DNA from: Gammaproteobacteria bacterium
GTDB lineage: Bacteria > Pseudomonadota > Gammaproteobacteria > HTCC5015
Assembly (NCBI GenBank): GCA_013817245.1
Contig: JACDDA010000001.1
Coordinates: forward strand, 62,001-126,000
Length of the DNA stretch: 64,000 bases
Direction: 5' to 3'
Shown: piece by piece, positions 40,370-62,718 of the stretch
How the letters are laid out: every line of letters begins with the position of its first letter
Position numbering within the stretch: position 1 is the first letter of the stretch
The notes under the pieces: generated by a model
The model's database searches: none
The model's input: the letters and a program-made list of their open reading frames with translations, nothing else
What the model was told of the DNA's origin: nothing
Made by a program: the position numbers and the translations under genes

Positions 40370-41242
40370 TTAAATTTTCTTTGCAACGACCAATCTAGAG
40401 CCACCTATCGGAAAATTAAATCCTTTTTTGATTAATGCCAATTCCAAGCTCAGCATTCTAAAAAATAATGAATTTAACCAATGAGAAATTTTTAATTCAG
40501 AAGTTGCGTCAAACTTTTCTTTAGACGCCCTTTTCTGCACAATTCTAGAAACCAACATGGCAGGTAGCAAGGAAGTTACGAATGATGTGCTTCTTATAAT
40601 ATGGAATCCTGCTGCCGTTATTTTAGCGTGTATATCTAACGCAGAATAACGCCGCACATGGCACGCATATTCGTCGACAGGGCTCCACAGCCATGCATGT
40701 TGCGGTACCGTCAGCAACATATAACCTTCAGGCCGCAATGCCGTATGCACTTGCGCTAAAGTGCGTTCATCCTCTTCAATGTGCTCCAGAACATCGAAAG
40801 CTCCAATAACATCAAATTCTTCTTCAAAAGGAATATTTCTTGCATCCATCTGCATAAAATTGACAGATGGTAATCTCGCCGCTGCAAACGCAAGGCCATC
40901 TATAAAAATTTCGCTTCCTGAGATTGTTGAGTGGGGAAATTGTTTGGATATTCCAGATAAAACATATCCAGTACCACATCCAATTTCAAGAAAAGATTTG
41001 AAATTTTTGCAATACTTTTCGAGCCCCCAAAGAATTAATCTATTTCTAGCTTGAAACCAAAAATTAGCTTCTTCTAACCGGGCCAATTCTGAAAAATAAC
41101 TTGATTTAAATCCACCTCCGGCATGGGCCGAATCAGGAGCATAAGCATGAAAACCATTCATAAGAATCGGCTTAAATTTGCAACTTGGACAAGCAACCAT
41201 GGGCATGGCGTAATGCTCATTACAAGCGAGACAACGCTTCAT
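40370..41242 (-). CDS. SAM-dependent methyltransferase with N-terminal Cys-rich finger
   Basis: 290 residues. The first 25 residues hold CLACNEH and CPSCKF, a likely zinc finger. A class I SAM domain follows (FLEIGCGTGYVLSGISKQFP, then FDVIGAFDVLEHIEEDERTL and GYMLLTVPQHAWLWS). Similar proteins are common in O-antigen clusters beside GtrA-like genes. The substrate is unknown; a lipid-linked sugar or chain end is possible. Its start overlaps the GtrA stop by 4 nt (ATGA). Confidence 0.85.
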   Translation of the reverse strand: MKRCLACNEHYAMPMVACPSCKFKPILMNGFHAYAPDSAHAGGGFKSSYFSELARLEEANFWFQARNRLILWGLEKYCKNFKSFLEIGCGTGYVLSGISKQFPHSTISGSEIFIDGLAFAAARLPSVNFMQMDARNIPFEEEFDVIGAFDVLEHIEEDERTLAQVHTALRPEGYMLLTVPQHAWLWSPVDEYACHVRRYSALDIHAKITAAGFHIIRSTSFVTSLLPAMLVSRIVQKRASKEKFDATSELKISHWLNSLFFRMLSLELALIKKGFNFPIGGSRLVVAKKI

Positions 41243-41670
41243 TTCCTTTCCTTATTTAAAATATTTAAGTCAGGAAAAACAAAAAACTTAAAGCCAAGAA
41301 AAAGCAAAATAGCTACAACAAAAATTGCAATTGCCTGAACCCATTGATGAGCATATCCAAGTTTATCAACCATTATGATAAGCATTGCAAGATTAATAAG
41401 ATATCCAAAGCAGTGTACAACAGAGTAGCGAAATCCTGTTTCTAACAAATCACCTGTATATTTAAATGTTAATTTACGATTTCCAACAAAACCCATGCCA
41501 GCGCCCACTATATACAAAATAGTCATAGTTATCTTCGGCGAAGCCCCAAAATAAGTTATTAACAAATAAATTATATAGCCCGCAAAGTTGCTTACTATTC
41601 CCACCAGACCATAGTGAAATAATTGTTTAACGGAGTTTTGTTTTTTAGCAAAAATAAATATATCATCCAT
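41239..41670 (-). CDS. GtrA-family membrane protein
   Basis: 143 residues, four membrane helices: QLFHYGLVGIVSNFAGYIIY, ITMTILYIVGAGMGFVGNRK, FRYSVVHCFGYLINLAMLII and VQAIAIFVVAILLFLGFKFF. The GNRKLTFKY segment after helix two is typical. GtrA proteins are thought to flip undecaprenyl-phosphate-linked sugars to the periplasm. Works together, by inference, with the GtrB-like enzyme at 45736 and the GT-C enzyme at 47678. Overlaps both neighbours. Confidence 0.9.
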   Translation of the reverse strand: MDDIFIFAKKQNSVKQLFHYGLVGIVSNFAGYIIYLLITYFGASPKITMTILYIVGAGMGFVGNRKLTFKYTGDLLETGFRYSVVHCFGYLINLAMLIIMVDKLGYAHQWVQAIAIFVVAILLFLGFKFFVFPDLNILNKERK

Positions 41671-42586
41671 ATACTAACAGAGCCAAACCAAATCCCGTTT
41701 TACCATACCCATTTCCGTTATAGAGCATGTATCGTTCGCCTTTATGATCAAACACAAAAGGATATTCAATCATTTCAGAGTCCCATCCATCAGCGGAAAC
41801 ATCAATGCCTACCGCATCCAATGCCAAATTCCATTTTTCTCCATCCTTACAAACCGCGTATCCAATGCGATATTTTGCTCCTATACCACTACGGTAAGAA
41901 AACCACATTTCATAGCCTATTTCTATATTTCCCAGCACCGTAGGTCTTGAAAATGCTTGCGCTCTTCCCAGCTCATAAGGAACAGCTAAGCCTTCACGAT
42001 TCCAAGTATGTCCGTCCACAGAGGAAGCATATTGGATAACATGTAACATTTCTCCATTGCCTGCATCCCACGTTATCGTTGAGCCGTACCACATACTGTA
42101 GCTTTTCTCGTCTTGCTTTTTCACCCATGGATAAGAAAGGCTTATAGGATCAACATTGTCAGAAGTCATGAAAGGATATTCGGAATCTAGCTCTAAGCTG
42201 AGATCAGAGTGCACAATAAGTCGGCCTATATCGCCCCGCCAATGTCCATCTTTAGGATTTTGCCATCCCATAAAAAGCATATACTGTACGCCGTTCGCTT
42301 CATAACAATTGCCAATGCTTATCCCATCGCGATAGAAGCTTCCTTCTGATCCATGCTCAAAAAATGGATTCCTGTGCTCCTGAATAACTTTTCGACTCAC
42401 AATATCAATATCAACAGCACCGACTGAAGATCTGTTGTCAGCATCTCTACCGCTAAAAAAAATACGATAAACGTCTTTTTCAATAAAAACTGCTAAAGGA
42501 TTTGCAGCATGTGATAAAAGCTTAGGATGTCTATTAGCACCAAAAGGACAATAAAGTAAGCCGATTTTTTGCCACCGTCTTTTCAT
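41663..42586 (-). CDS. Predicted five-bladed beta-propeller, glycosidase-like protein
   Basis: 307 residues, no signal peptide. Repeated blade-like segments: VYRIFFSGRDADNRSSVGAV, VQYMLFMGWQNP, SYSMWYGSTITWDAG, GYEMWFSYRSGIGAKYRIGY and RYMLYNGNGYGKTGFG. This spacing is that of GH43/GH32-like propellers. Proteins of this type occur in surface-sugar loci without proven activity. Cytoplasmic location suggests a role in precursor handling or transfer rather than degradation. Its frame overlaps gtrA by 8 nt and the acyltransferase by 4 nt. Confidence 0.65.
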   Translation of the reverse strand: MKRRWQKIGLLYCPFGANRHPKLLSHAANPLAVFIEKDVYRIFFSGRDADNRSSVGAVDIDIVSRKVIQEHRNPFFEHGSEGSFYRDGISIGNCYEANGVQYMLFMGWQNPKDGHWRGDIGRLIVHSDLSLELDSEYPFMTSDNVDPISLSYPWVKKQDEKSYSMWYGSTITWDAGNGEMLHVIQYASSVDGHTWNREGLAVPYELGRAQAFSRPTVLGNIEIGYEMWFSYRSGIGAKYRIGYAVCKDGEKWNLALDAVGIDVSADGWDSEMIEYPFVFDHKGERYMLYNGNGYGKTGFGLALLVYG

Positions 42587-43251
42587 ATTTTTTTTAGCTT
42601 CGTGCTCGGCATAAGTGAACGGTTACTTGCTGTCCCGATGTAAAGCCCATCTGGTTCGGCATCAGCTAATAACAATGCGCCTGCACCAATTACACATCGA
42701 TCACCGATCGTGATGTGATCACGTAACGTTGCATTTACGCCAATAAAGCATTGTTCTCCAATCTCCACACCACCAGAAACAACTACGTGTGAAGCAATAA
42801 AACAGTGATCTTTTATAGTAGAGTGATGACCTATATGATTACCACTCCATAGCGTAACGTTATTACCTATAGTAACAAATGGTTGTATCGTGTTATCTTC
42901 AAAAATAAAACAGTTCTCTCCAATGCAATTGGCATCCAAAATAGTGGCACGAGAACTAATATAGCTGGCCGAACGATATCCCAGTGCCTTCACGGCTAAA
43001 TATTTTTCTTTTCTCACAGAGTTTAATTTAGAGTAACTGAGCGCTACAAAAACTTCATATTGGTCAGGAGAAAAGCGAGTGACGACCTCTTCAAAAGGAA
43101 TTACTGGAAGGTCACAGAAAATTGGTTCCGTTAAATACGCGGCATCAACAGTAAAAGCAACAACTTGGTATTGCGAATCAGAACTAAAATAAAAGTGCGC
43201 AAGTTGCGCAATTTCACCAGAACCAAATATTACCAAATTTTTTTTCATCAC
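42583..43251 (-). CDS. Sugar O/N-acyltransferase, NeuD/PglD-like left-handed helix
   Basis: 222 residues. The N-terminal Rossmann half (NLVIFGSGEIAQLAHFYF) and the C-terminal hexapeptide repeats (SSRATILDANCIGENCFIFE, VTIGNNVTLWSGNHIGHHST and CFIASHVVVSGGVEIGEQCF) are the PglD/NeuD plan. The His in GHHSTI matches the catalytic region. Such enzymes acetylate amino groups of UDP- or dTDP-linked amino-deoxy sugars; WecE product dTDP-Fuc4N is a plausible substrate here. Overlaps the propeller gene by 4 nt. Confidence 0.85.
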   Translation of the reverse strand: MMKKNLVIFGSGEIAQLAHFYFSSDSQYQVVAFTVDAAYLTEPIFCDLPVIPFEEVVTRFSPDQYEVFVALSYSKLNSVRKEKYLAVKALGYRSASYISSRATILDANCIGENCFIFEDNTIQPFVTIGNNVTLWSGNHIGHHSTIKDHCFIASHVVVSGGVEIGEQCFIGVNATLRDHITIGDRCVIGAGALLLADAEPDGLYIGTASNRSLMPSTKLKKI

Positions 43252-43254
43252 CTA

Positions 43255-45129
43255 TTAACCTGCGTGATCGACTAAATATATAACTGTGCACCGATCCACA
43301 GTGCTAGTCTTTAAATATTTATTTTTGACCAACAACTCCCAATCAGGTAAAGCTTGAAATTTTTGCGTATATTTAAAGGTATATAAACCAGATTTAGCCT
43401 GTTTTGCACTAAGATAGACTTTACTCAGATATGTGATCTTATCTTCCCATATTTCAAATTGACATATATCGGAGCCGATAGTGGCTCTTCGAAACTGCAA
43501 TGTATGGCCAAAATAGATACGATCAGATTTGTGCATATTTAACCGCGAACCTTCATCTGTAAATAATGGTACGCGTTCCTTAAAATCTAGACTAACTAAC
43601 GTGAACCAATTTTCAGCCATTCTTAAATCAGTATGATTAAATACATTAATCGGTGCTATACCATAATAATGCGCGGCCTCCCCTCTCGCATTAGCTTGAC
43701 TATTAAATCCAAGATAAGGCATCGGTATCGTTAAAAAGTAAAAAACCGTTAACGTCATCACATGCAAAATTACTACACTTGTCACTTTAGAACGACTATA
43801 GGATCTAGTAGAAGTTCTAATAAGTTTTTTTCTTGGTAACTCACAAATGCCAAATAATTCTAGTCTACGTTTGGCAATGAACCGATACATTACTGGGCCA
43901 ATTTTCAATGCTTTTCCGAGAAGCAGAAGGGGTAATAAAGGCCACAATAAAACCAATGATTTAGACAGCTGAATATAAAAATCATATCCGTACGTAAGCG
44001 TAGCCTTGTCTTCAATAAGACCATAAAGTTCCGTAAGTGATTGATCTCTTGTGATGCCATGACTCATGAGAATGTCTTGATTAGTAGAGGCTGGCTTTAA
44101 TTTAACGATTCCAAAAACATCAATGAATGTCACTACCTGAACAGTCTTGTCACACAAATTACAGCGGTCATCATAAAAAATTTGAATCGACTTATTTGCA
44201 TTTAATCCAAGAGTAGACCAAAAAATAGCAGCCCATAAAACAAACTCAATCTCTGCTAGAGATCCCAAATTCAATACAAAGAACGACAGTGAAAAAAATA
44301 AAATTCCAAAAATAACTATATAAGCACGAAAAATTCCACCCAAAATAACAAAGGGTAAAATCAATGCATACCAAGGCATTATAGACCACAGCGATATTTT
44401 GCCTAAATAAGTAAAATTTTCACTGGATGAAAAAAACACGATTAATTGTGCATACCATGATGACATGAAATTATTAGTTAATAGTAAAGGGCCCGCCACG
44501 CCGGTTGTCCACGCAGGTTCATTTAAATGTATAGCAAGCGAATACATGCAAAGAGCCCAATAACTTATGACTGCCCCAAATTTTGCTAACGCTATTTGTT
44601 CCGGAGTGGGGTCTCCTTCGTAATAAAACAAAAAATATTTGCTCTTCGGTACGAATTTAAGAATTTTTGCATCCAAAGAAATGTACTTGCCTGCATTTGT
44701 AAGTAACAATAAAAGAGAAACCATCGCGGCGATATCATTCCCCAATGTTGATTTTTCAACTACCTGGTCTCCTATTTGCCACATCCCCGCCATCAAAAAT
44801 ATGAATGCCCATTGAGTAAATAAACCCAATACCAAACATATTCCGCCAATTAATTCAGCGATACTCCATAGACCAACAGGAGAAAAATATTCAGAGGGAA
44901 GCAGGAATTGAAGAACAAAAAGACTCCTGATTACTAAAATGCCCCCGAATATGATTCTTAACAAAGCAAATTTATTATGCTCGTACCCAGAAACGCTTAA
45001 AAATACTCTCTTGGCAAGATATTCACCCAACTTCAACATCACGTTAGATAAAGGCGCACAATAACGAATGGCTAAATAGGATAGGACTAAAGTTAAAATA
45101 AAAAATATCAGTGCTTCATTCATGCTCAT
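43255..45129 (-). CDS. HTTM-DCC fusion membrane protein of unknown function
   Basis: 624 residues. About nine N-terminal helices (50-310) resemble the HTTM (vitamin K-dependent carboxylase-like) module: FALLRIIFGGILVIRSLFVL, LWSIAELIGGICLVLGLFTQ. A DCC domain follows with IQIFYDDRCNLCDKTVQVVT, a CxxC thiol pair at 323/326. Two further helices and a C-terminal soluble domain of about 140 residues come last. DCC proteins are thiol-oxidoreductase-like, and HTTM proteins are often next to them. A fusion within a polysaccharide locus is unusual, and the substrate is unknown. Coupled to the methyltransferase upstream by an ATGA overlap. Confidence 0.72.
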   Translation of the reverse strand: MSMNEALIFFILTLVLSYLAIRYCAPLSNVMLKLGEYLAKRVFLSVSGYEHNKFALLRIIFGGILVIRSLFVLQFLLPSEYFSPVGLWSIAELIGGICLVLGLFTQWAFIFLMAGMWQIGDQVVEKSTLGNDIAAMVSLLLLLTNAGKYISLDAKILKFVPKSKYFLFYYEGDPTPEQIALAKFGAVISYWALCMYSLAIHLNEPAWTTGVAGPLLLTNNFMSSWYAQLIVFFSSSENFTYLGKISLWSIMPWYALILPFVILGGIFRAYIVIFGILFFSLSFFVLNLGSLAEIEFVLWAAIFWSTLGLNANKSIQIFYDDRCNLCDKTVQVVTFIDVFGIVKLKPASTNQDILMSHGITRDQSLTELYGLIEDKATLTYGYDFYIQLSKSLVLLWPLLPLLLLGKALKIGPVMYRFIAKRRLELFGICELPRKKLIRTSTRSYSRSKVTSVVILHVMTLTVFYFLTIPMPYLGFNSQANARGEAAHYYGIAPINVFNHTDLRMAENWFTLVSLDFKERVPLFTDEGSRLNMHKSDRIYFGHTLQFRRATIGSDICQFEIWEDKITYLSKVYLSAKQAKSGLYTFKYTQKFQALPDWELLVKNKYLKTSTVDRCTVIYLVDHAG

Positions 45130-45755
45130 TTCCTTACGAGTATCGTGAATTCATATAATTCATAATCATGCAATAGAGCGACGTTACGAGAATAGCGTCT
45201 TTTACAAAAATCAAAAATAATACAAGGATCGGCGTAGTATAAATAGTCGCGCATTTTATTTTTATCAGAATAAGAAGTTAAACAGTTGAAAGAAAAACCA
45301 ATACGACTGGTTTTATCGAGCACATCAAGAGTATCTTCTAGATAAGACCGCCATTCGTTGTCGGGTCTTTCCAAACGAACATTAAATATCCCACTCGCTA
45401 TGCCGTAATCCGCAATTTCATCAGGATTACCAGACAACACAAACCGAGCATTAGACTTATTTTTATAACGCTGTTCGGCTGCTTGAATCATACTATCGGA
45501 GACGTCAATTCCAGAATAAGAGAAGTGTTGATATTTACACGCAAGATAATCATATAGTGCGCCATAGCCGCATCCAAGATCATTTATTGAAAATGGGTGG
45601 GTTGCATCAATAATTTTGCATAACTGCGCAAAACGTAACGTTTGACTTTCTTCTCCATTCCAATCAACTCCGCATGGGGTTTCTCCATGCTGAGTAAATT
45701 TAGTGCTGTAGTAATCAGCAATCTCTGCCAATAGATCAATTTGTGTTTTTTGCAT
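45126..45755 (-). CDS. SAM-dependent methyltransferase
   Basis: 209 residues. SAM site INDLGCGYGALYDYLACKYQ, then YSGIDVSDSMIQAAEQRY and a VLDKTSRIGFSFNCLTSYSD middle region. N-terminal MQKTQIDLLAEIADYYSTKF is common in WbmH-like methyltransferases from O-antigen loci. Substrate unknown; a sugar hydroxyl or chain terminus is likely by context. It overlaps the end of the GT2 gene by 20 nt. Confidence 0.85.
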   Translation of the reverse strand: MQKTQIDLLAEIADYYSTKFTQHGETPCGVDWNGEESQTLRFAQLCKIIDATHPFSINDLGCGYGALYDYLACKYQHFSYSGIDVSDSMIQAAEQRYKNKSNARFVLSGNPDEIADYGIASGIFNVRLERPDNEWRSYLEDTLDVLDKTSRIGFSFNCLTSYSDKNKMRDYLYYADPCIIFDFCKRRYSRNVALLHDYELYEFTILVRK

Positions 45756-46665
45756 AAATTTGCTTCACAATAGTATAAGGACGCTGTTTTATTTCAGAAA
45801 ATATTTTTGAAAGATAAATGCCAACCACCCCTATAAAAGAAATAATCATACCGCCTAACAACCAGATTGAAGCCATAACAGACGTCCAGCCGCTTAATGG
45901 TCGCGCAAGAAAAATCCAGTTAATTGTTAAGTAAGCGATATAGGTACTTGCAATTAGACAAATAGATAAACCGATATAAAAAATGCCAACTAAAGGAACA
46001 TTACTAAATGAAGTAACTGAATTAACTAACAATGACATTTTCCTACGAAGAGTATAAGTAGTTTCACTTGTACTGTGCTTTTTCACAATGTAAGGACATT
46101 GCTCAAAGCCAGTGATGTGCCAGAGCCCAGCCATAAAGACCTCTCTTTCTTTATGGAGCAACAAAGCATCAACATAACGGCGAGTCATCAGTCGAGCAGT
46201 CACAATATTTTCTGGCAAGGCTATACCTGTAAGAATTTTGAAGAAACGATAAAACCACTGACCACTCCAGCGCTCGAACCAACCACCCTTGCGCTTTTCT
46301 TGAATACCATATACAACATCACAATGTTGATTTTGCATTTTTTTGGCGAAGACAATCAAACACTCGGGCTCTTCTTCCAAATCGCTATCAAGCAGTAATA
46401 TCCAATCTCCTTTCGCATGCGCAAGTCCCGTCATCATTGCTTTATGATGTCCAAAATTACGCGACAGATCAACAACAACAACATGAATGTCACTATCAAC
46501 GAGTTGCACCGCAAGGTTCAGGCTGTTATCAGGCGAGCCATCGTTTACTAAAACAATTTCATAATCTTCATTTGCTAACTGTTTAGCTACAGCACTCGTT
46601 CGCTGATAAAATTCATTGAGGTAAGGTGCTGATTGGTAAAGCGTTGCAACAATAGAAAGCCTCAT
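45736..46665 (-). CDS. Polyprenyl-phosphate glycosyltransferase (GtrB/DPM1-like GT2)
   Basis: 309 residues from ATG 46665, 2 nt after the WbqC stop. GT2 catalytic part: LSIVATLYQSAPYLNEFYQR, YEIVLVNDGSPDNSLNLA, DLSRNFGHHKAMMTGLAHAK and LLLDSDLEEEP. The pattern DLSRNFGHxxA is that of dolichol/undecaprenyl-phosphate transferases. Two C-terminal helices anchor it in the membrane. It would make an undecaprenyl-phosphate sugar donor for the GtrA protein at 41239. Confidence 0.92.
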   Translation of the reverse strand: MRLSIVATLYQSAPYLNEFYQRTSAVAKQLANEDYEIVLVNDGSPDNSLNLAVQLVDSDIHVVVVDLSRNFGHHKAMMTGLAHAKGDWILLLDSDLEEEPECLIVFAKKMQNQHCDVVYGIQEKRKGGWFERWSGQWFYRFFKILTGIALPENIVTARLMTRRYVDALLLHKEREVFMAGLWHITGFEQCPYIVKKHSTSETTYTLRRKMSLLVNSVTSFSNVPLVGIFYIGLSICLIASTYIAYLTINWIFLARPLSGWTSVMASIWLLGGMIISFIGVVGIYLSKIFSEIKQRPYTIVKQIYAKNTN

Positions 46666-46667
46666 AA

Positions 46668-47357
46668 CTACACGTATCTCATATAGTGGCGCGCATCTTT
46701 CCCGCAATTAAAGAGCAAGTCTAAAATCGTAACGCCATGAGTAAACTCACCCCAAAGCTGGGGATATTCACGATACCCAGCATAATCAAACCAAGTCAAT
46801 GTAATACCCCTATCAGCAAACAGTTGCTCTTCAACATAACCTTTGGCTGCAGGACCGGAAATATATTCTGCACCGCCTGCCTGCACACATAAGTCAACTA
46901 AACGCTCTGTTTTACCTTCCAATAAAGAATATTCACATGAGTCAGTAATCTTAGTAGTTATACTCAAGTAAGTACAAATAGCCTCAATAAAATGGCGATT
47001 GAGTTGAGATAGATGAGTGTAAGACCCTGTCATATAAAGTGGCTCTAACCATGCTGCAATTTCATCAAAATGTGGTGCGCGCTTATAGTTCTGCAACAAC
47101 GCTTTCCAATGCGCTCCCGCCCATTCCAGACCATCGATCTCAGTTTCTCGAATTTTTTGGTAGTATTTACCTTTAACCATAACAGGCACAGTAAGCCACT
47201 GCACTCCCTGTGGAGTTTTAATTTGATTGCGATTGCGCCAGTCACGCCGTGTATATTGCATGTCATCGTACAAAATAAATTCGTCCACAGCCGCGATCAA
47301 ATCGAAATATCCTTTCCAGGGAATATAATTAGATTGTAAAATTGCGATTTTTTTCAT
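46668..47357 (-). CDS. WbqC-family protein
   Basis: 229 residues. Opens [20 protein letters not shown], the WbqC signature, and continues [39 protein letters not shown] and [10 protein letters not shown]. The family is found in surface-sugar clusters with amino-deoxy sugars; its reaction is not well established. Start 47357 chosen for the family N-terminus; 47366 is possible. It is followed after 2 nt by the GT2 gene and preceded by a 320-nt gap. Confidence 0.93.
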
Positions 47358-47677
47358 TCGGATCATTTTTCACTTTAAAATTTTTTATTTTCCATTTACG
47401 GAACTATAATTTCACTATGCCAGAGAAACTAATTTCGCATCATGACGAAATGATGCTTCACTTTAAATATATAATACAACCTGGAAAGGCTTTAAAATTA
47501 ATTCGCATTCCTTATTAAAGAATTAACATACCGTTATGAATAATTTGAAAGCTCTGCATGTAATCAATATTAAAATGTAATATGTCTAGTAAGTTTTACA
47601 TTCTTCTTAAAAGAATAAATTTGACTTGTAATGCGTAACTTTAGTCAATGCCTTTAAAACTAAAGTTAACATAATTA
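47358..47677. other. AT-rich intergenic stretch with inverted repeat (47636-47668)
   Basis: About 320 nt with no gene. TAACTTTAGT and ACTAAAGTTA form an inverted repeat with a 13-base loop just past the GT-C stop, a possible transcript end without a clear T-run. The remainder must hold the WbqC promoter; I see no confident -35/-10 pair. No repeats or RNA genes recognised. Confidence 0.5.
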
Positions 47678-49237
47678 CTATTTTTTAATATATATGCGAT
47701 AAATAGGCGACCACCTATCATCATAATAACGTTTGAAATTATTAATAAAATATTCATCAAGTATGAGATGTGTGTTGCGGAAACGCAACTCGTCTCGTCC
47801 ATCGAGCGGATAATCAAATATTATCACTAATTTGACGTCACTCGCTTTAATACGTTCAATTTCAGCCTTTTGGAATGCTTCACTGCGAGGAAACAAAACA
47901 TAAGTTTCCCATACCGGTGATTTGCGATTCAATACAGCATAGGCCCCCGGCCAAAAAGGCATAGCAACAAAACTTTCCCCATTTGGGGTAAATTCTTCTG
48001 TCAACTTTTTCAGCATCATTAAATCAGCGGCTTCACTCGGTACGACCTTAAATTGATCTGCGCCAATATTAATTTTGTTGCAAGTATGTTTTAGGCATAT
48101 CCAACTCGGTTGACCGGGAACGAGTATTATTAAACTGGTTACAAAAAGCAGTCCTACTATTGCTGCTTTGATTCTTATCGATTGATTTAATGACAATACC
48201 AAGATGCCAATTAATAAAGGCGGAATACCCGGTGCTAAATGATGCAAATCTGCTCTGGAATAAGCGTAGTGAGAATAAGGGAGCGCTAAAAATACTGATG
48301 CTACCAATGCTGGGGCCACTTGTTTTTCTTTCCATTTTCTCCATAAAACCCATGGAATCCCTAATATCCAGAATAATCCAATAGCAATAAAAGAAAATCC
48401 CAATAACAAACCTTGCAATATTTCAAAAAGAGGCAGCTGCCCAAAAGGAACACGCCATGGCCAAGGAATCGGAACGAATATATTCGTAGCTTGAGACTCA
48501 AACAAAAAAACAATGCTGTCTATAAAAGCCGAGGCAAATCCCGACATAGTAATTAACATTAATAAAACGGGAAGATATCCAATAAAAATCCCGCCGCCCC
48601 AGCAGAAAAATGCTTTTATAAAATTGATCTTGGTTCCATCGCGAATTGCCAAATATCCCATAACGCCGAGAGTAGCAAGCACACCATATACACCATGGTT
48701 TCGACCAAAAACTGCCGCTAAACCTACAATCAAGCCCGTTATGAAATACCTATAATATGACGGCTTATTAATAAGAAAAGTAAGAACGCCTATCAATAGA
48801 TAAGGCAAACAAGTATCAAAAAATCTATAGTTAAGAAATGTCCATAAAGCCAATGTTATTGTTACAGCCCCCAATAAAATGAGATTAGGCTGTACCTCTT
48901 TTTGAAAAATTGTTTTCAACCCGATAAAAAGACAGATGGCTTGGAAAATCGAAGTAGTTGCTCTTAAAGCCACCAACCCATTATCGCCCCATAAACCCAT
49001 TAAAGTCGCAGACCAATAATAACGGCCTGGATCGTAAGCCATAAAATCGCGAATAGGCACTTCTCCCACCATAACTCGCTGGACGCCATACCAAAGAAAA
49101 CCTTCATCCCATAACAAAGCCTGCCCATTATGACTTTGCCAAAGAAACATCCCTAATACCGTAACTATCGTTGCGAACAGTATTGAAACAGACTGCGGAA
49201 ATGTTTGACCCGCTAACTTGTCTATTTTTTTAATCAT
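47678..49237 (-). CDS. GT-C family membrane glycosyltransferase
   Basis: 519 residues, about eleven membrane helices. The first periplasmic loop carries LLWDEGFLWYGVQRVMVGE with an acidic Asp-Glu pair in the place typical of GT-C enzymes (ArnT/PMT-like), followed by RDFMAYDPGRYYW. A C-terminal periplasmic part runs from about 400. Such proteins take sugars from undecaprenyl phosphate carriers outside the inner membrane, which suits the GtrA/GtrB-like genes nearby. ATG 49237 is chosen over 49249, whose AAGG is too close. Confidence 0.8.
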   Translation of the reverse strand: MIKKIDKLAGQTFPQSVSILFATIVTVLGMFLWQSHNGQALLWDEGFLWYGVQRVMVGEVPIRDFMAYDPGRYYWSATLMGLWGDNGLVALRATTSIFQAICLFIGLKTIFQKEVQPNLILLGAVTITLALWTFLNYRFFDTCLPYLLIGVLTFLINKPSYYRYFITGLIVGLAAVFGRNHGVYGVLATLGVMGYLAIRDGTKINFIKAFFCWGGGIFIGYLPVLLMLITMSGFASAFIDSIVFLFESQATNIFVPIPWPWRVPFGQLPLFEILQGLLLGFSFIAIGLFWILGIPWVLWRKWKEKQVAPALVASVFLALPYSHYAYSRADLHHLAPGIPPLLIGILVLSLNQSIRIKAAIVGLLFVTSLIILVPGQPSWICLKHTCNKINIGADQFKVVPSEAADLMMLKKLTEEFTPNGESFVAMPFWPGAYAVLNRKSPVWETYVLFPRSEAFQKAEIERIKASDVKLVIIFDYPLDGRDELRFRNTHLILDEYFINNFKRYYDDRWSPIYRIYIKK

Positions 49238-49304
49238 ACAAAAACGCATCCTTGGTATAAAAAATTTAATTATTTAATAGAAAATCATTAACTATCGAAA
49301 AACT

Positions 49305-50435
49305 TTACAAAATATTAGAAAGTGCATTTACTACTTTATTTACATTCTCCATACCAATCCATAAGGGCAAACGCAATAAACGATCTGATAAATCTTCTGT
49401 ATGAGTCATATTTCCATGGGTTTTCGAATATTGTTTGCCCGCTATAGAAACATGGAGCGGGACATAATGAAAGACTGCATTAACGCCCTGTTTCTTAAGT
49501 CCATCAATCACTCTCATACGAGTTCCCAATGAATCTAGTAGCACATAATACATGTGGGCATTATGTTGACAGTGCGCAGGAATAATTGGCCGTCGCAATT
49601 TACCGGCTTTTTCCAACGATTCAAATTGTTCATGATATTGCGTCCAGAGCTCTAATCTTCGTTCTGTAATATTAAAAGCCTCTTCCATTTGCGCCCAAAG
49701 AAAAGCTGCAACAATCTCACTAGGCAAATATGAAGATCCGACATCAACCCAGGTATACTTATCGATTTGGCCGCGGAAAAATTGACTCCGGTTAGTACCT
49801 TTTTCACGAATAATTTCTGCTCTCTCTATGAAATTTTCATCATTAACTAACAAAGCGCCGCCTTCGCCAGAAATAATATTTTTTGTTTCATGGAAAGAAT
49901 ACGCTCCTAAATTTCCAATCGTACCCAGTGATCGATCTTTATAAGTCGACATAACACCTTGCGCAGCATCTTCTATGACGATGAGATTGTAACGATGAGC
50001 AATCTCCATAATGGAGTCCATTTCACATGCCACTCCAGCATAATGCACAGGGACAATCGCTCGCGTCCGTCCAGTAATCGCGGCTTCAATTAATGTCTCA
50101 TCAATATTTAATGTGTCAAAACGAATATCTACGAATACAGGTACTCCGCCTCGAAGAACAAAAGCATTAGCCGTAGACACGAATGTATAAGAAGGCATTA
50201 TTATTTCATCACCAGGCTGAATATTTGCCAGAAGGGCAGCCATCTCCAGCGACGCAGTACAGGAATGCGTAAGCAATGCTTTTTTCGTGCCTGTGATTTT
50301 CTCTAACCAAGCATGACAATTTTTAGTAAAGCGGCCATCTCCGGCTAGATGAGCGTCATGATGCGCTTGAGCAATATAATAGAGCTCACGCCCAGTCATA
50401 TAAGGTTTGTTAAAAGGAATAGAACTAACTGTCAT
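49305..50435 (-). CDS. wecE: dTDP-4-amino-4,6-dideoxygalactose transaminase
   Basis: 376 residues matching E. coli WecE through its length: LLTHSCTASLEMAALL, GDEIIMPSYTFVSTANAFVL, VPVHYAGVACEMD, and PLP Lys185 in SFHETKN, then EKGTNRSQFFRGQIDKYTW. It converts dTDP-4-keto-6-deoxyglucose to dTDP-Fuc4N. The substrate comes from RfbA and RfbB in this window. The companion WecD acetyltransferase and WecF transferase of the enterobacterial common antigen system are not present, so Fuc4N or a derivative is likely used in the local polysaccharide instead. Confidence 0.95.
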   Translation of the reverse strand: MTVSSIPFNKPYMTGRELYYIAQAHHDAHLAGDGRFTKNCHAWLEKITGTKKALLTHSCTASLEMAALLANIQPGDEIIMPSYTFVSTANAFVLRGGVPVFVDIRFDTLNIDETLIEAAITGRTRAIVPVHYAGVACEMDSIMEIAHRYNLIVIEDAAQGVMSTYKDRSLGTIGNLGAYSFHETKNIISGEGGALLVNDENFIERAEIIREKGTNRSQFFRGQIDKYTWVDVGSSYLPSEIVAAFLWAQMEEAFNITERRLELWTQYHEQFESLEKAGKLRRPIIPAHCQHNAHMYYVLLDSLGTRMRVIDGLKKQGVNAVFHYVPLHVSIAGKQYSKTHGNMTHTEDLSDRLLRLPLWIGMENVNKVVNALSNIL

Positions 50436-50487
50436 TCTTAATATCTCTTTTTTTAAAAGGAATTTTAAACTCTACTTTATAAAAATA

Positions 50488-51765
50488 TTAATAGAGTCTA
50501 TGAATACGTTTTGCAATACCGCTTACACCTTCGTTTTTAAAAATATTCCATGCTTTGTTAAATAGTTTTACCAGCATGCCGGGTGCTCTTAAAGATTCGC
50601 GCAAATGCCCCCAGGACGATATAGCGATCGCGCCCAACGTACTGCCTGCCTGAAATCCTGGAGTTAAAGCTTTTTGTATACGCATTAATTCTAAGGCTTG
50701 TTTTTTCGTGCTAAATAATTCAGGGTATTCTTTTTTGGCTCTTCTTTGCCACCATGTTTTATATCCACCATTCTCTACAGCAGAGTCAAAAGGGTTTGGA
50801 AATTTATGCTGCAAGTCCACACGCTCTCTATATATTAACCGTGCGTACGATGGTATTTTGCTGCCATCAGAAAAAGAACCAAAACTCCAAGGCACGGCAC
50901 TCAAAGGATCTTTGCTAAGCTCAGACGTCATGCCCGTGTACCAATTAACTAAATCGATCGCAGTATTATTATTATTGGAATTTTTTTGCATCATTACATG
51001 ATGAGCGCCACTATCAAACCCCGTGAAATGATAAAAGCCCAATGGTTTGCCATCAATTAACACCTCGCCATTTATATCACCTGTTACTACGCGTGTAGTT
51101 AAATTCCAAGGCGCAACATTAAACCGTGAAGACCGCAAAATATGTACACCCTCAAAAAAGGCCGGCGCCAAATCAATCCAGCGCTGATCTGTAAATAGGC
51201 CATTGGGGATTTCATCTCGACAAAAATAATATAAACGTTCAGCCCACCAATTAGCGAAAGTCTTTCCAATATCGGTCGGGCTCACAGCAATAAAACCCAA
51301 ATTATAAATACCGTGTTTAAGGCTGCATATCTCATTGTCCATGATCGCAACCAAACTTTTTTCGGGGCTTGTCTGGTGCGGAGTTAAAGCAATATTAAAA
51401 TCTTTCAAAGCTAATAGCACTTCTTCAAGCCTAGAAAAAACTACCATGTCTGGATCAAGATAAATAACGCCAGCGCAATCATCGCGTGCAAGCAGTTTTT
51501 TTAGAACAAATGGTTTAATGGCTGTCGACAACTCAACGATGTTATGACAAAAAGCCCAGCCCACGAAATCAGGAATACCTAATTCAGAAGCAGGGTGTAT
51601 TTCATCAAACAATTCATCGGACAAATCAATCCCTTCTGGAATCTCGTCCGAAAGAGCCAAATGGATCACCCACTCTGGATGCCACTTTTTAATAGAACGA
51701 AGCAAAACTCTTACTTTAGGAATATAGTTACAAGCCGCGCTTGTAAAGACATGTATTTTTTTCAT
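50488..51765 (-). CDS. GT-A type glycosyltransferase of unclear family
   Basis: 425 residues. An N-terminal GT-A domain carries IHVFTSAACNYIPKVRVLLR, the DxD metal site in GVIYLDPDMVVFSRLEEV, YNLGFIAVS and FTDQRWIDLAPAFF. The arrangement YLDPDM and LFTDQRWID is seen in GT8/GT77-like and fused O-antigen enzymes. The C-terminal 120 residues are helical and basic. AAGGA stands 8 nt before the ATG. It lies 52 nt ahead of wecE. Confidence 0.82.
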   Translation of the reverse strand: MKKIHVFTSAACNYIPKVRVLLRSIKKWHPEWVIHLALSDEIPEGIDLSDELFDEIHPASELGIPDFVGWAFCHNIVELSTAIKPFVLKKLLARDDCAGVIYLDPDMVVFSRLEEVLLALKDFNIALTPHQTSPEKSLVAIMDNEICSLKHGIYNLGFIAVSPTDIGKTFANWWAERLYYFCRDEIPNGLFTDQRWIDLAPAFFEGVHILRSSRFNVAPWNLTTRVVTGDINGEVLIDGKPLGFYHFTGFDSGAHHVMMQKNSNNNNTAIDLVNWYTGMTSELSKDPLSAVPWSFGSFSDGSKIPSYARLIYRERVDLQHKFPNPFDSAVENGGYKTWWQRRAKKEYPELFSTKKQALELMRIQKALTPGFQAGSTLGAIAISSWGHLRESLRAPGMLVKLFNKAWNIFKNEGVSGIAKRIHRLY

Positions 51766-51776
51766 AATAAAATCCT

Positions 51777-53378
51777 TTATAACTTATAAATTCTGTTTTT
51801 AAATTCAGCTAGATTTTTTAAAATATCATCAGGCGCTGTAGATTTTAATATTTGACCCTTAGCATAATCACGAACTAAATCAGCAGGAGCGCCTAAATCA
51901 AAACACGCAATGGGCACATCCATCGCCACCAATTCATGACAAACGTAAGAAAAAGTTTCGGCGCAAATTGAAGGGAATAAGAATATATCTATGCCAGAAT
52001 TCGCAATCAAATCAGGTAAATCAGCAGGTTTGTAGTTTCCTGTAACCGTCACTATGTTTACAGGCGCAATAGCATCTAACATGCCTATTACTGTTATTTT
52101 CGCCTCTGATCCCACTCGTAAAATCTCGTGCGCAAGCTCATTTACGACATCAGCGCCTTTGTGTTTTCCAATACTGCCCACAACACCTATATGTAAATGA
52201 TTAGCTGCTTTTAATGATACTTTATGCATTATTGTATGCAGAACGTGAGGAATAACTTTCCAGTTCTCATCCGACAATTTAGGATGCGCTTTTTTTAAAA
52301 GCCTCTTGGAAGCCTCGGAAAAAAGTGCTACTTGATCCGCAGCTTTTAATAAATAAGCACACTGCTCTCGCCAGTCCGTAATATTATTAACGGCTAACAT
52401 TCTCACGAAATCATCGTTATGGTGGGCAAGGCATGACGCGCACACCTTAGGATCAGGAATTCCACAATAACTACCCTCACTATTAATAAGAAAAGGACTT
52501 GGGCATATTAAAAAATAATCATGTAACGCAACAATAAATTCACAGTTTTGTTGTTTTTTTAAATTTATTAGAAACTCAAAACAGAGAATCGGCTCAGGAA
52601 AAGAAACCGCGCAATTATAAAGCATACTCGTTACATCTGCCGAATGTATAAAAGACAAAACATCTTCAATAGAATCGATACCATATCTCAAACGTTTTTT
52701 TTCTCTAAAAACGTCTAAAAAGTATTGCAATTTAATAATATCAAATCCCACAACAATAACCGCTTGCCCTACCGCTAGTTTGTTAGCGACGTACTCTTTT
52801 CGATATAAATTGGCTCCGCCGCCCAAATCATGATCAACAATTAAAGCGATCGCTTTGCCTTTCACTGCGCTTTGCACACGTTGTATAGAGGCGACAGGAT
52901 ATTTCCGGGCTGGCTTAGACATGTATTTTTTTATTTTGCTTATAAAAACGCTAACTTCCGCATTTCTTAATAGTTTTACAGCTTTATATAGTAATTTTTT
53001 ATAATTATGAAAGGTAGTGAGCCACCAATGAAACTTGTTTCTAAAAATCATACTCGAAAGATCTGCTGTTATTGTCTGTCCATTAGATAACCCCCAGTGC
53101 AATTCGGCGCTCAAGATATCTCTTATCTGCAAGCTACCCGACAATAAAGAAAATACATAAAACTCAGCACCAGTTCTGGCGGGGTACAGTAATGCAATAT
53201 TTTCTCTTTTAGAACTATACGAAATAGGAATTATTACGGGCGAACTATCAGACTTGTATCTCAAATAGAGAGAAAGACTTTCTACGCGAAGATCATTGTC
53301 AGGCATCACCCAACCAGACATAAAGACTCTGTCTTTGCGTATAACAAAGTTATCAATCTCATAATGTAGCATTGGCAT
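51777..53378 (-). CDS. Family 4 (GT-B) glycosyltransferase with extra N-terminal domain
   Basis: 533 residues. The first 150 or so residues form a beta-rich domain (MLHYEIDNFVIRKDRVFMSG) found in front of some GTs from complex polysaccharide loci. The GT-B part starts at about 175: ALIVDHDLGGGANLYRKEYV, later FIVALHDYFLICPSP, LHIGVVGSIGKHKGADVVNE and IFLFPSICAETFSYVCHEL with the Glu of the GT4 donor site. It ends 12 nt before the next GT gene. Donor unknown. Confidence 0.85.
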   Translation of the reverse strand: MPMLHYEIDNFVIRKDRVFMSGWVMPDNDLRVESLSLYLRYKSDSSPVIIPISYSSKRENIALLYPARTGAEFYVFSLLSGSLQIRDILSAELHWGLSNGQTITADLSSMIFRNKFHWWLTTFHNYKKLLYKAVKLLRNAEVSVFISKIKKYMSKPARKYPVASIQRVQSAVKGKAIALIVDHDLGGGANLYRKEYVANKLAVGQAVIVVGFDIIKLQYFLDVFREKKRLRYGIDSIEDVLSFIHSADVTSMLYNCAVSFPEPILCFEFLINLKKQQNCEFIVALHDYFLICPSPFLINSEGSYCGIPDPKVCASCLAHHNDDFVRMLAVNNITDWREQCAYLLKAADQVALFSEASKRLLKKAHPKLSDENWKVIPHVLHTIMHKVSLKAANHLHIGVVGSIGKHKGADVVNELAHEILRVGSEAKITVIGMLDAIAPVNIVTVTGNYKPADLPDLIANSGIDIFLFPSICAETFSYVCHELVAMDVPIACFDLGAPADLVRDYAKGQILKSTAPDDILKNLAEFKNRIYKL

Positions 53379-53492
53379 TACTCACAACGCATCATTTTAA
53401 AACTGTAATAATAGCGGGGCATGGAAAATCATAAATAAAAAATATTTTTTTATTTAAAAACAACAACGCTATATCTTTATATTTTTTATCGC

Positions 53493-54494
53493 TCATAACA
53501 AACCAGAGCCTTTCGCAATAAACTTTTTCAAATCTTCCGAGTTATCTATTTTTGCGCTTTTTATGTGACCATTTTGTTCAATAATATTAACTATTTTCAC
53601 CCACCGGAAGCCCGCCTTTTCGCAAGAGTAGAAATATATGCGCTCTATAACATGCGCCAATGTTTCATCTTTTTGTTTTTTTTCAGCAGGGAACTCTTCT
53701 AACATAAAATTGCAATCTAACAAGGGTTTAAGCGCAGCAGATCTACCCCAAAACATGGAGCCAGAAGGGAAGTCAATGCTACGCTGTTTCGAAATTGATA
53801 TGCCCATTCTCATGGCTATATCTTTACCTTGCTTGAAATTCAAACCCCAACCCACTCTTTTATGAAGTGTTTTATAATGCGGAGGGGCGATCATGCCTAA
53901 ATCAGGGTCGACTCGAAAAGCTTCAAACACGCTATACACTAAGGCTTCAGAACCTAAAAGATTCTGCAATAAATAGGTACGCCACTCACCTAACGATTCG
54001 GCATGTGGCGATTTTTTAGTGTGGATATGAAGAAAATATTCGTATTGGCCATAAACATCTTTGCAGGCTACCAACTTAGGCGCTATATCCCTACCACGAT
54101 TAGGCACTACGTGCACATCCACATGACCTTTGCGCCATTGCGCAAAGCCATTTTGAATATCGAGCTGTTTTTCTTTTGTATCAGTTGTTATGAACAAATC
54201 AAAAGAGTAAGGGATATTAAGCAGATAACCTCGGAACTCATCGGCCATATCAGGATAATACATATGACATATAACCGCTATATGCGGCGGTGTTTCCCAT
54301 TTATCAATAGCGTAATCCAACGGTACTGCAATACAATTATCAATGACAGGAGGTACGCCTATATAAGCAATGATTCCACGAATAGTCGCTATAATTTGAC
54401 CATTCATAATCAACGAAACCAATCGAACGGCATATCGCGAATATTTTTTAGTCATCATTGCCAGCTTTGGAAGGTCGTTAGATTCGGATTTCAT
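53493..54494 (-). CDS. RgpF-like rhamnan synthesis protein
   Basis: 333 residues from ATG 54494 (frame open to 54524, where GGAGGAGG lies; the real start is uncertain). RgpF features are IAVICHMYYPDMADEFRGYL, DLFITTDTKEKQ, HVVPNRGRDIAPKLVA, FLHIHTKKSPHAESLGEWR and SIDFPSGSMFWGRS. RgpF homologues act in assembly of rhamnose-rich polysaccharides, in line with the dTDP-rhamnose genes directly upstream. It is the first glycan-assembly gene after rfbC. Confidence 0.85.
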   Translation of the reverse strand: MKSESNDLPKLAMMTKKYSRYAVRLVSLIMNGQIIATIRGIIAYIGVPPVIDNCIAVPLDYAIDKWETPPHIAVICHMYYPDMADEFRGYLLNIPYSFDLFITTDTKEKQLDIQNGFAQWRKGHVDVHVVPNRGRDIAPKLVACKDVYGQYEYFLHIHTKKSPHAESLGEWRTYLLQNLLGSEALVYSVFEAFRVDPDLGMIAPPHYKTLHKRVGWGLNFKQGKDIAMRMGISISKQRSIDFPSGSMFWGRSAALKPLLDCNFMLEEFPAEKKQKDETLAHVIERIYFYSCEKAGFRWVKIVNIIEQNGHIKSAKIDNSEDLKKFIAKGSGLL

Positions 54495-54585
54495 ATCTAG
54501 GGCAATTAGCCCTCCTCCCAGCAATACTCATTATCTGTATTGGATATTGAATTTATTATAACTATATTTACATCCACAAAATAAA

Positions 54586-55134
54586 TCACGGGAAAAGCGC
54601 AGCTGCGGTTATAGTCATGCCCAATTGATCTTTACTAGATAATTGCGGCTCAATCATGCTAGGCCATTGAATCGCAATTATCGGATCATTCCATAAAATG
54701 CAACACTCTAATTCCGGCGCATAATATTCCGTGGTTTTATAAAGAAATTCAGCTGTAGCAGATAACGTTAAAAAGCCATGCGCAAAACCTTCTGGTACCC
54801 ATAATTGTTTTTTATTTTCAGCGGACAAAATTTCTCCAACCCATTGCCCAAAGGTCGGCGAGCTTTTACGAATATCGACAGCAACATCAAAAACTTCGCC
54901 TTCTATCACACGCACTAATTTACCTTGGGCTTTGGGTGACAACTGGTAATGCAGTCCACGCAAAACGCCTTGTTGTGATTTGGAGTGGTTATCTTGCACG
55001 AAACTTCTTTTAAGACCGGTTGCTTCTTCAAAAGCTCGTTGATTAAAGCTTTCAAAGAAAAAACCTCTTTCATCGCCAAATACTTTGGGCTCAAACAATA
55101 CAACATCTGGAATCGCTAGTTTTTTAGCTATCAT
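54586..55134 (-). CDS. rfbC: dTDP-4-dehydrorhamnose 3,5-epimerase
   Basis: 182 residues, family length. Signature residues: EPKVFGDERGFFFESFNQ, FVQDNHSKSQQGVLRGLHYQ (the catalytic His in GLHYQ) and WVPEGFAHGFLTLS. It epimerises the 4-keto-6-deoxy sugar at C3 and C5. Its ATG overlaps the stop of rfbA by 1 nt. It is the third enzyme in dTDP-rhamnose synthesis and last gene of the rfbBDAC set. Confidence 0.97.
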   Translation of the reverse strand: MIAKKLAIPDVVLFEPKVFGDERGFFFESFNQRAFEEATGLKRSFVQDNHSKSQQGVLRGLHYQLSPKAQGKLVRVIEGEVFDVAVDIRKSSPTFGQWVGEILSAENKKQLWVPEGFAHGFLTLSATAEFLYKTTEYYAPELECCILWNDPIIAIQWPSMIEPQLSSKDQLGMTITAAALFP

Positions 55135-56021
55135 TAGAAAATCTTCTCTTTCGTTAAACCCAATAAATATTGGCCATAACCATTTTTTGCTAGCGGCTTA
55201 GCTAATTCATGCAGCTTATTGTCATCGATCCAGCCGCGGCGCCAAGCAATTTCTTCTGGGCATGCGACTTTTAAACCTTGACGGCGTTCTAACGTAGCAA
55301 TGAATTGGCTTGCTTCTAATAAACTATCATGCGTTCCTGTATCTAGCCATGCATAACCGCGGCCCATAATTTCAATAGCTAATTGATTTTTTTCTAAATA
55401 CATACGATTAAGATCAGTGATCTCAAGTTCTCCACGCGGAGAAGGTTTTAAGGTTTTTGCAATGTCGACAACTTGTTCATCATAAAAATAAAGTCCGGTA
55501 ACTGCATAGTTAGATTTTGGTTTTAACGGCTTTTCTTCTAACGAGATAACGCGATTTTCACTATCAAATTCAGCGACCCCATAGCGCTCTGGATCATGCA
55601 CATGATAAGCGAATACCGTAGCGCCAGTTGTGCGCTGCATTGCACTATTCAACAAATGCTGGAACTCATGTCCGTGAAAAATATTGTCGCCTAAAACTAA
55701 AGCTGCGGGTGCTCCGTCTAAAAATTTCTCGCCTATTATAAAAGCTTGCGCTAAACCATCGGGGCTGGGCTGTACTGCATATTGCAAATTAATTCCCCAT
55801 GCGCTGCCATCACCTAATAACTGTTCGAAACGTGGTATGTCTTGAGGCGTACTAATAATTAAGATTTCATTAATCCCCGCCAACATTAATGAGCTCAGCG
55901 GATAATAAATCATCGGCTTATCATAAATAGGTAATAACTGTTTAGATATCGAGGTTGTCACAGGATACAGTCGTGTGCCTGAACCACCGGCAAGAATAAT
56001 ACCTTTTCTTTTTTTCATCAT
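55134..56021 (-). CDS. rfbA: Glucose-1-phosphate thymidylyltransferase
   Basis: 295 residues. Nucleotide loop [20 protein letters not shown] with [17 protein letters not shown], then [13 protein letters not shown] and [19 protein letters not shown]. Complete length for RmlA. It makes dTDP-glucose, the entry to both dTDP-rhamnose and (through rfbB and wecE) dTDP-Fuc4N. Overlaps rfbD by 4 nt and rfbC by 1 nt, indicating tight coupling. Confidence 0.98.
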
Positions 56022-56917
56022 GATTTCTCTAAAGTTTCTCTAAGCATACGATTAACGCCTATCTGCCAGGCAGGCAACACCAGTTCAAATGTGCTGCATA
56101 ATTTATTAGTATTTAACCGCGAATTATGCGGCCTTGCTGCGGGTGTTGGAAAAGCAGTTGTTGGAATTGGGGTAATGGCTTCATTTGCTACTTTTAACTC
56201 CACATGGAGTGCACGCGCACCATCAATTACAAAATGCGCATAGTCATACCAAGAAGTTTCACCCTGTGCAGCCAGATGATAAATTCCGGCAACATCCTTT
56301 CGCATGTGCGAAAAACGAATAGCATGAGCGGTGACATCAGCGATTAACTCGGCACTTGTAGGCGCACCAACCTGATCATTGATAACGGTCAAACGATCCC
56401 GTTCACGCGCTAAACGCAACATCGTTTTAGCAAAATTAGCACCACGTGCCGCATATACCCAACTAGTGCGAAATATCAAATAGCGATTGCAGTTATTTAT
56501 AATAGCCTGCTCACCGTCATACTTTGTTTTGCCATAAACATTAAGCGGGGCTACTGCATCGCCTTCTAACCAAGGCTTGTGACCGGCGCCATTAAACACA
56601 TAGTCCGTAGAATAATGAATCAACCAAGCGCCCAACTCATGAGCGGCCTTAGCTAGCACACCGGGTGCTAATGCATTAATGGTGTGCGCTAGAACCACTT
56701 CCGTTTCAGCGTTATCTACTGCTGTATACGCTGCAGCATTAACAATAATATCTGGTTTTATTTTATAGACTGTCTCTGCAATGCCGAGCAAATTAGTTAA
56801 ATCCCCGCAATAATCTTTACTGTGCCGATCTAACGCAATCAATTCACCCAACGGTGCCAGTGAACGTTGCAACTCCCAACCAACCTGTCCATTTTTACCT
56901 AAGAGCAAAATCTTCAC
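56018..56917 (-). CDS. rfbD: dTDP-4-dehydrorhamnose reductase
   Basis: 299 residues. NADPH motif [18 protein letters not shown], the catalytic Tyr/Lys in [25 protein letters not shown] and [11 protein letters not shown]-type substrate region. It makes dTDP-L-rhamnose from the epimerised ketosugar. It sits between rfbB and rfbA with 4-nt overlaps on both sides. Confidence 0.97.
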
Positions 56918-57984
56918 GATACGCGCTCAGAATAATTTTTCTCGATCCATTCACGATAAGCACCTGATTGAATGTTCTCCACCCAATATTGATTATCAAG
57001 ATACCACTGCACTGTTTTACGAATGCCAGTTTCAAATGTTTCCGCCGGTTTCCAGCCTAGTTCTTTATAAATTTTAGTAGCATCAATTGCATATCGACGA
57101 TCATGTCCTGGCCGATCTTTAACAAAAGTAATTTGTGTTTTGTATGATGCACCGTCTGTACGCGGGTGTAACTCATCTAACAAGGCGCATAATATATGGA
57201 CGATATCTATATTGGGTTTCTCATTCCAACCACCAATATTATACGTTTCACCCAGCACACCTCTGAGCAATACTTCACGAATCGCCGCACAATGATCACC
57301 CACATATAACCAATCACGCACATTCAGGCCATCGCCATAAATGGGTAGAGGTTTACCGGCTAATGCATTATGAACAACAAGAGGAATCAGTTTTTCTGGA
57401 AATTGGTAAGGGCCATAGTTGTTAGAACAGTTTGTCGTTAAGACCGGCAGACCATAAGTATGATGATAGGCGCGCACCAAATGATCACTTGCCGCTTTAC
57501 TTGCTGAATAAGGACTATTGGGCTCATATTGTTTTGTTTCAACAAAAGCGTGATCCGAATCAGATAAAGAACCGTACACTTCATCAGTAGAAACATGTAA
57601 AAAACGAAAACTGCGTTTTTTATCATCGGTTAATTGATTCCAATACAATCTGGTCGATTCTAATAAACGAAACGTACCGACAATATTGGTTTGTATAAAA
57701 TCCTCAGGCCCGTGTATCGAACGATCGACATGGCTTTCCGCAGCAAAATGAATAATGGCGCGCGGCTGATAAGTATTCAGTAACTTTTCAACAAGCACAG
57801 CATCTGCGATATCACCTTGCACAAACTGATGGCGCTTATCGCCTTGCAAACTCGCCAGCGTTTCCAGATTGCCGGCATATGTCATTTTATCCAGGTTAAT
57901 TACAATTTCTTCATTCTCACGCAGCCAATCCAAGACGAAATTCGCCCCAATAAAACCTGCGCCACCCGTCACAAATATAGTCAT
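56914..57984 (-). CDS. rfbB: dTDP-glucose 4,6-dehydratase
   Basis: 356 residues. NAD motif [19 protein letters not shown], the catalytic Thr-Asp-Glu in [11 protein letters not shown] and the YxxxK in [26 protein letters not shown] is also typical. It forms dTDP-4-keto-6-deoxyglucose, shared by RfbC and WecE. It is the first of the rfbBDAC set, with a 118-nt gap upstream that may hold a promoter, though a convincing -10 box is not visible. Confidence 0.98.
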
Positions 57985-62710: not shown

Positions 62711-62718
62711 AACATTAC

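Follow-up and report, generated by a model that had tools for sequence, protein, structure and literature searches.

The locus analyzed here, a 64,000-nucleotide stretch of gammaproteobacterial DNA (hereafter the window), raises the question of what a single protein that joins an HTTM-like membrane module to a DCC domain and a further C-terminal domain does within a polysaccharide gene cluster. HTTM and DCC proteins are known families, and HTTM, DUF393 and DUF5819 genes occur as neighbors on plasmids. The mechanism of the HTTM protein considered in work on linaridins is unclear (PMC9927463). A previous sequence-only reading of the window proposed a redox or lipid-modifying step on a polyprenyl-linked glycan or on its carrier. 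In this study, the protein, its gene neighborhood and its relatives in bacteria and temperate phages were compared.

Domain organization of the HTTM-DCC protein

The protein is encoded by a single frame of 624 residues with an ATG start (43255..45129). The frame had been recognized in the sequence-only reading, which did not give its strand; it lies on the minus strand, as do the features described below for positions 40370 to 57984. The DCC domain proposed in that reading, with the motif CNLC at residues 323–326 (44152..44163), was likewise recovered: a DCC1-like thioredoxin-type domain occupies residues 317–427 (43849..44181; PF04134, E = 7.3e-15), scoring 56.6 bits against a Pfam gathering cutoff of 27.8, and the CNLC motif lies at its start. 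PF04134 matched nine of nine members of the alignment of close relatives (A1), and a CxxC near the start of the domain is kept in every DCC-bearing relative.

This frame provides the only PF04134 match in the 2.27-Mb genome, in which no 16S gene was detected. Across the phylum, DCC matches were found in 63 of 200 genomes, nearly all within short frames, and the present frame (631 codons from stop to stop) is the longest DCC frame among the matches listed for these 200 genomes, which makes the fusion unusual. It is nevertheless more than a chance event, since relatives with 40–51% identity over the full length exist in other genera; one scan of 84,980 species genomes yielded eight relatives. 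Such close full-length relatives are rare: a scan of 398 genomes of the phylum matched only the window's own copy, and the gene is present in five of 148 Rhizobium species.

An extra C-terminal domain had also been predicted, and the conserved block at residues 448–624 (43258..43788) agrees with this, comprising the last transmembrane helix and about 150 conserved residues. Nine close relatives share the stretch YGIxPIxVFNxxDLRMAENWF in this domain, and Cys556 and Cys614 are invariant among them. From charge distribution and hydropathy, the sole basis of this topology, it is proposed that the DCC domain sits in a strongly basic cytoplasmic loop and is followed by the last helix and a periplasmic C-terminal domain. 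Structure prediction had been suggested as a check on the earlier reading; AlphaFold2 gave a poor model from the full protein and nine relatives (pLDDT 51), which was for this reason not used in a fold search. The C-terminal domain alone gave a partial model (mean pLDDT 72) with no match in the PDB or BFVD (best Foldseek E of 0.53 and 0.09, respectively; best Z of 3.1), a result compatible with a known as well as a new fold, and phmmer and profile searches against PDB sequences found no direct match to the HTTM-DCC protein.

Membrane module and the lysine-to-histidine change

The membrane module, at about residues 46–303 (44221..44994), had been described as carboxylase-like. Pfam does not see this likeness, as PF05090 did not reach its gathering cutoff in any of nine relatives or anywhere in this genome; profile–profile comparison does. 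Against ten HTTM proteins, hhalign gave probabilities of 96–98.6% and E values of 2.8e-9 to 1.4e-15 over about 240 columns, whereas ten unrelated polytopic membrane proteins from the same loci, used as controls, gave 0.5% or less. On these profiles the module is a remote HTTM relative. An HTTM profile in turn found human γ-glutamyl carboxylase (GGCX; E = 6e-18), and in this alignment the invariant HTTM lysine pairs with K218, the second lysine of the GVKK stretch in GGCX. K218 serves as the base for deprotonation of vitamin K hydroquinone, and catalysis is abolished by the K218A substitution (PMC12589487).

At the corresponding position the window protein has His201 (44527..44529), within the motif S-x3-H-x5-W-x2-G. 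The motif occurs in all 15 clade members with an intact N-terminal part, with the histidine invariant; in one of them (L009) it was read from alignment A1, the residue script having printed another stretch there. The ten HTTM proteins have an invariant lysine in the equivalent S-x3-K-x5-W-x2-G stretch, and two outgroup sequences read likewise. Because the motif spacing is equal, the difference is taken to be a replacement of lysine by histidine, although one hhalign output opens a gap at this position, against the ungapped reading. Residues R58, G102, S151, D153, W207 and G210 are common to the clade and the HTTM proteins. A Methylococcaceae copy (L013, 9916–9989) has an out-of-frame internal deletion, either genuine or an artifact of assembly, that removes the protein as far as about residue 206; with its N-terminal part missing, it was left out of the conservation counts. 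The DCC domain is itself absent from three clade members.

The glycan cassette

The coupling to a methyltransferase gene, that of a putative sugar methyltransferase in the sequence-only reading, was confirmed: the HTTM-DCC start, ATGA, overlaps by four bases the stop of a gene for a class I SAM methyltransferase (45126..45755). Next to it are genes for a polyprenyl-phosphate glycosyltransferase of the GtrB/ArnC type (45736..46707; E = 2e-45 to GtrB, PDB entry 5ekp, and 8e-38 to ArnC, 9hwj) and a WbqC family protein (46668..47366; PF08889, E = 1.8e-82). A large membrane protein without a family match is encoded upstream of WbqC (47678..49249) and, judging by its position alone, is possibly a periplasmic glycosyltransferase. 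It is followed, in the direction of rising coordinates, by a WecE-type dTDP-4-amino-4,6-dideoxyhexose transaminase (49305..50435; NCBIfam TIGR02379, E = 8e-190), by RmlA, a glucose-1-phosphate thymidylyltransferase (55134..56021; TIGR01207, E = 1e-157), and by an RmlB-like dTDP-glucose 4,6-dehydratase (56914..57984) with Pfam dehydratase/epimerase matches and kin in the L010 and L013 cassettes. On the other side of the HTTM-DCC gene are genes for a NeuD/PglB/VioB-type acyltransferase (42583..43251; TIGR03570, E = 5e-54), a conserved cassette protein (41663..42586), a GtrA-type flippase (41239..41670; PF04138, E = 1.5e-17) and a second class I SAM methyltransferase (40370..41242) with orthologs in L007, L011 and L016.

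The conserved protein at 41663..42586 has no Pfam or NCBIfam match and only weak glycoside-hydrolase-like ones; its weak PDB matches are to a conserved periplasmic protein and a GH43 enzyme. It is found in every core cassette, with 65–73% identity retained in several. Two genes at 61224–62821 of the window are related to the Wzt and Wzm genes of another locus (L095), and the polysaccharide of the window may therefore leave via an ABC transporter.

The glycan setting extends to the relatives. Glycan genes lie within 10 kb of the gene in ten of 11 independent cellular loci of the clade, the eleventh (L009) having only cassette-type methyltransferases on the stretch examined, so that homologs are not found mainly outside glycan loci, the outcome that would have spoken against the earlier reading. 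Most close relatives, in several proteobacterial lineages and on rhizobial plasmids, keep a recurrent cassette. It consists of WbqC, the GtrB/ArnC-type glycosyltransferase, methyltransferase A, a NeuD-type transferase, the glycoside-hydrolase-like protein, a GtrA or SMR-type protein, methyltransferase B, WecE, RmlA and RmlB; a PhyH oxygenase and a 612-residue membrane protein are frequent extras. Six independent genomes have their best GtrB/ArnC-type glycosyltransferase within about 7 kb of the gene: in three (G000, G487 and G492) it is the sole copy at E = 1e-15, at a distance of 0.6 to 6.3 kb, and in the three others (G486, G489 and G490) the distance is 0.6 to 4.5 kb. The neighboring 612-residue membrane protein (L011, 7755–9593), to which no family was assigned, matches precisely the four plasmid records that the HTTM-DCC query matches. 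No link could be established between its family and the large membrane proteins that the window and L007 encode upstream of WbqC.

A view of the gene as essential to the cassette was abandoned. Plasmids of Peteryoungia and Azospirillum have the core cassette without it, and the cassette of Rhizobium Q54 has only a fragment matching residues 542–605. As cassettes exist without an intact gene, it is regarded as accessory to precursor synthesis rather than part of it, and the precursor can probably be made in its absence. The Q54 remnant, of the C-terminal domain, lies between GtrA and a methyltransferase gene (L080, 16608–16778).

One clade member (in genome G917) stands outside the cassette and is accompanied by two methyltransferases, Wzt with a Wzt C-terminal domain, Wzm, a glycosyltransferase and a PMT_2 protein; this is an O-antigen-type export locus. 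Around an outgroup relative with the lysine (L036), no glycan locus was found. Another relative that retains the lysine, on a Hymenobacter plasmid (L071, 4801–8450), lacks the DCC domain and is flanked by genes for a DegT-type aminotransferase and an acetyltransferase. Neorhizobium SHOUNA12A has a second, rearranged cassette (L035, 1743–13413) with a DCC-less paralog (L035, 9249–11429) that is nearest to the phage type.

Phage copies and the tailspike block

Genes of this family were found in three temperate Rhizobium phages (L070, 2227–4344; L088, 8947–11028; L089, 8830–10914), the sample obtained from a scan of IMG/VR and a tblastn search of GenBank phages. In all three the gene stands alone on the opposite strand, between the tailspike or tail-fiber gene and the lysis genes, with neither gtrA nor gtrB beside it. 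The IMG/VR scan gave one full-length relative (G890), which is 41% identical to the window protein, includes the DCC domain and lies on a contig of 41 kb on which frames resembling integrase, clamp, portal and capsid genes were recognized by reading the sequence rather than by a family search; its neighbors are an endolysin gene (PHROG 1224) on one side and a tail-fiber gene (PHROGs) on the other. The tblastn search gave RHph_N28_2, whose isolation host is R. etli N731, and RHph_TM3_3_14B, isolated on T3_14. Both have integrase and repressor genes, and their copies lack the DCC domain and lie between a lysis gene and the tailspike, which in RHph_N28_2 has a pectate-lyase-type domain. No related viral contigs were recovered when the DCC-less phage protein was used as the query. 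The phage copies fall in two separate places in the tree (support 100/99 and 100/100), and phages therefore probably acquired the gene at least twice.

RHph_N28_2 and RHph_TM3_3_14B have in common a 4.7-kb block of tailspike and HTTM genes with 72.6% DNA identity (84% for the tailspike protein and 72% for the HTTM protein), whereas the rest of their genomes (67 against 71 predicted ORFs) gave two weak matches, an integrase (37%) and a tail fiber (26%). A further phage, RHph_TM3_3_3, is 80–86% identical to RHph_N28_2 over most of the flanks and 75% identical next to the block, and the similarity ends at the block itself: the first 192 tailspike residues remain (51% identity) and a 93-codon frame replaces the HTTM gene. 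In all three phages that have it, the gene is thus an expendable one that adjoins a receptor-binding gene, and a relative with the same backbone does without it. The exchange of a tailspike together with one particular membrane protein suggests that both concern the same receptor.

Proposed function

Taken together, the evidence leans slightly toward an enzyme of the inner membrane whose substrate is a surface glycan or the polyprenyl-linked precursor of one; phages would have borrowed it to change a receptor. The position of the phage gene beside a host-recognition tailspike suggests that the protein alters the bacterial surface, although a gene so placed could act otherwise than on glycan. 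We are more hesitant, at somewhat less than an even chance, about the wider proposal that the HTTM proteins of this clade form a new class of enzymes for the modification of surface glycans, in which histidine replaces the carboxylase lysine. Bacteria would use them in a pathway of lipid-linked decoration, and temperate phages, in a module with the tailspike, for lysogenic receptor conversion.

Since the glycosyltransferase matches GtrB and ArnC, the enzyme families of the cassette point to a probable product, a 4-amino-4,6-dideoxyhexose that is acylated, methylated and linked to polyprenyl phosphate. RmlA, RmlB and WecE would make the dTDP-4-amino-4,6-dideoxyhexose, and the NeuD, WbqC and methyltransferase proteins would N-acylate and methylate the sugar. 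The ArnC/GtrB-type glycosyltransferase would then load it onto polyprenyl phosphate, and GtrA or the SMR-type protein would flip the linked sugar across the membrane. At the periplasmic face, the HTTM core and the C-terminal domain may modify this precursor or the recipient glycan, with His201 as the putative catalytic residue in the pocket that in GGCX contains the lysine responsible for quinol deprotonation. The DCC domain would be an optional helper inserted into the cytoplasmic loop ahead of the last helix. In phages, the borrowed enzyme would alter the receptor bound by their own tailspike.

Several other explanations account for parts of these observations. Both a GtrB-type enzyme and a flippase of the GtrA or SMR type are encoded in the cassette, the third Gtr membrane protein of serotype-converting phages is classically a variable one, and N731, the host of RHph_N28_2, carries a plasmid-borne cassette of this kind. 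The protein might accordingly be the acceptor-specific glycosyltransferase of such a system, which would take the sugar off polyprenyl phosphate and attach it to the O-chain in the periplasm, with phage copies redirecting the lipid-linked sugar of the host. This appears unlikely in view of the HTTM-like membrane core and of the phage copies, which have no adjoining gtrA or gtrB; moreover, a better candidate for the role, another large membrane protein, is encoded in most Rhizobium-type cassettes, and the G917 locus has PMT_2. If phage copies instead blocked DNA entry by superinfecting phages, cellular copies having an unrelated role, the solitary phage gene on the opposite strand would be explained, and proteins for superinfection exclusion are commonly membrane-bound, with their genes among the late ones. 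However, the glycan loci of the cellular relatives and the exchange of the phage gene along with the receptor-binding tailspike make this improbable.

The DCC domain bears on the two remaining explanations. A membrane assembly or redox-maturation factor, which would leave glycan untouched and use the DCC domain to control disulfides in another cassette enzyme, is consistent with retention of the CxxC wherever the domain is present, with the HTTM and DCC proteins that accompany DUF5819 proteins in plasmid gene sets, and with the SdpB-family maturation proteins, which are HTTM relatives. It is nonetheless rather improbable, as three clade members lack the domain and phages have the gene without the remaining cassette. 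The redox role for the domain in the earlier reading is weakened by the same three members and by the charge distribution, which places the domain on the cytoplasmic side. An explanation in line with that reading, in which quinol drives carboxylation of the polyprenyl carrier or a redox step on it, has in its favor the remote homology to HTTM proteins, and through them to GGCX, together with the thioredoxin-type domain. A carboxylase-like reaction is disfavored because the lysine matching K218, essential in GGCX, is replaced by the invariant histidine, and with the DCC domain also dispensable such a step seems very improbable.

Comparison with known systems

The clade resembles several known systems in part. 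It retains profile-level homology and the six common residues with HTTM proteins (PF05090), and it differs from them in escaping the PF05090 model, in the histidine, in its fusion to DCC and C-terminal domains, and in its occurrence in glycan loci and phages. With GGCX, to which it is tied through the HTTM profile, it has in common a membrane core followed by an extracytoplasmic domain; however, it has no equivalent of the catalytic K218, and the sequence gives no sign of the carboxylase luminal domains. The HTTM/DUF5819/DUF393 sets, which include the SdpB family, contain an HTTM protein, a DCC protein and a protein with a helix and a soluble domain as separate genes or part-fusions, whereas here they form one polypeptide, with no toxin-like neighbor recognized. 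Its C-terminal domain resembles DUF5819 (PF19136) in layout and is not detectably related to it (hhalign probability 0.4%, with a test profile of only six sequences).

Phage serotype-conversion genes (gtrABC and oac) offer the nearest parallel to the phage copies, as they are expendable genes of temperate phages beside a receptor-binding tailspike with cellular kin in glycan loci. They belong to other protein families, and the likeness is one of gene context. The literature searched, outside which many subscription papers lie, gave no function for bacterial HTTM-DCC fusions, and the histidine clade, its cassette and its phage module appear to be undescribed in it. The question is open to direct test with the cultured phage RHph_N28_2 and with the cassette of Rhizobium johnstonii 3841, whose HTTM-DCC gene lies on the chromosome (873185–875230). 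If phage copies do convert the receptor, one more family would join the short list of serotype-conversion enzymes, and the HTTM superfamily would gain a glycan substrate.

Another possible glycan modifier is the annotated acyltransferase encoded close to the lysozyme gene of RHph_Y1_10, a related Rhizobium phage (L097, 7740–8297).
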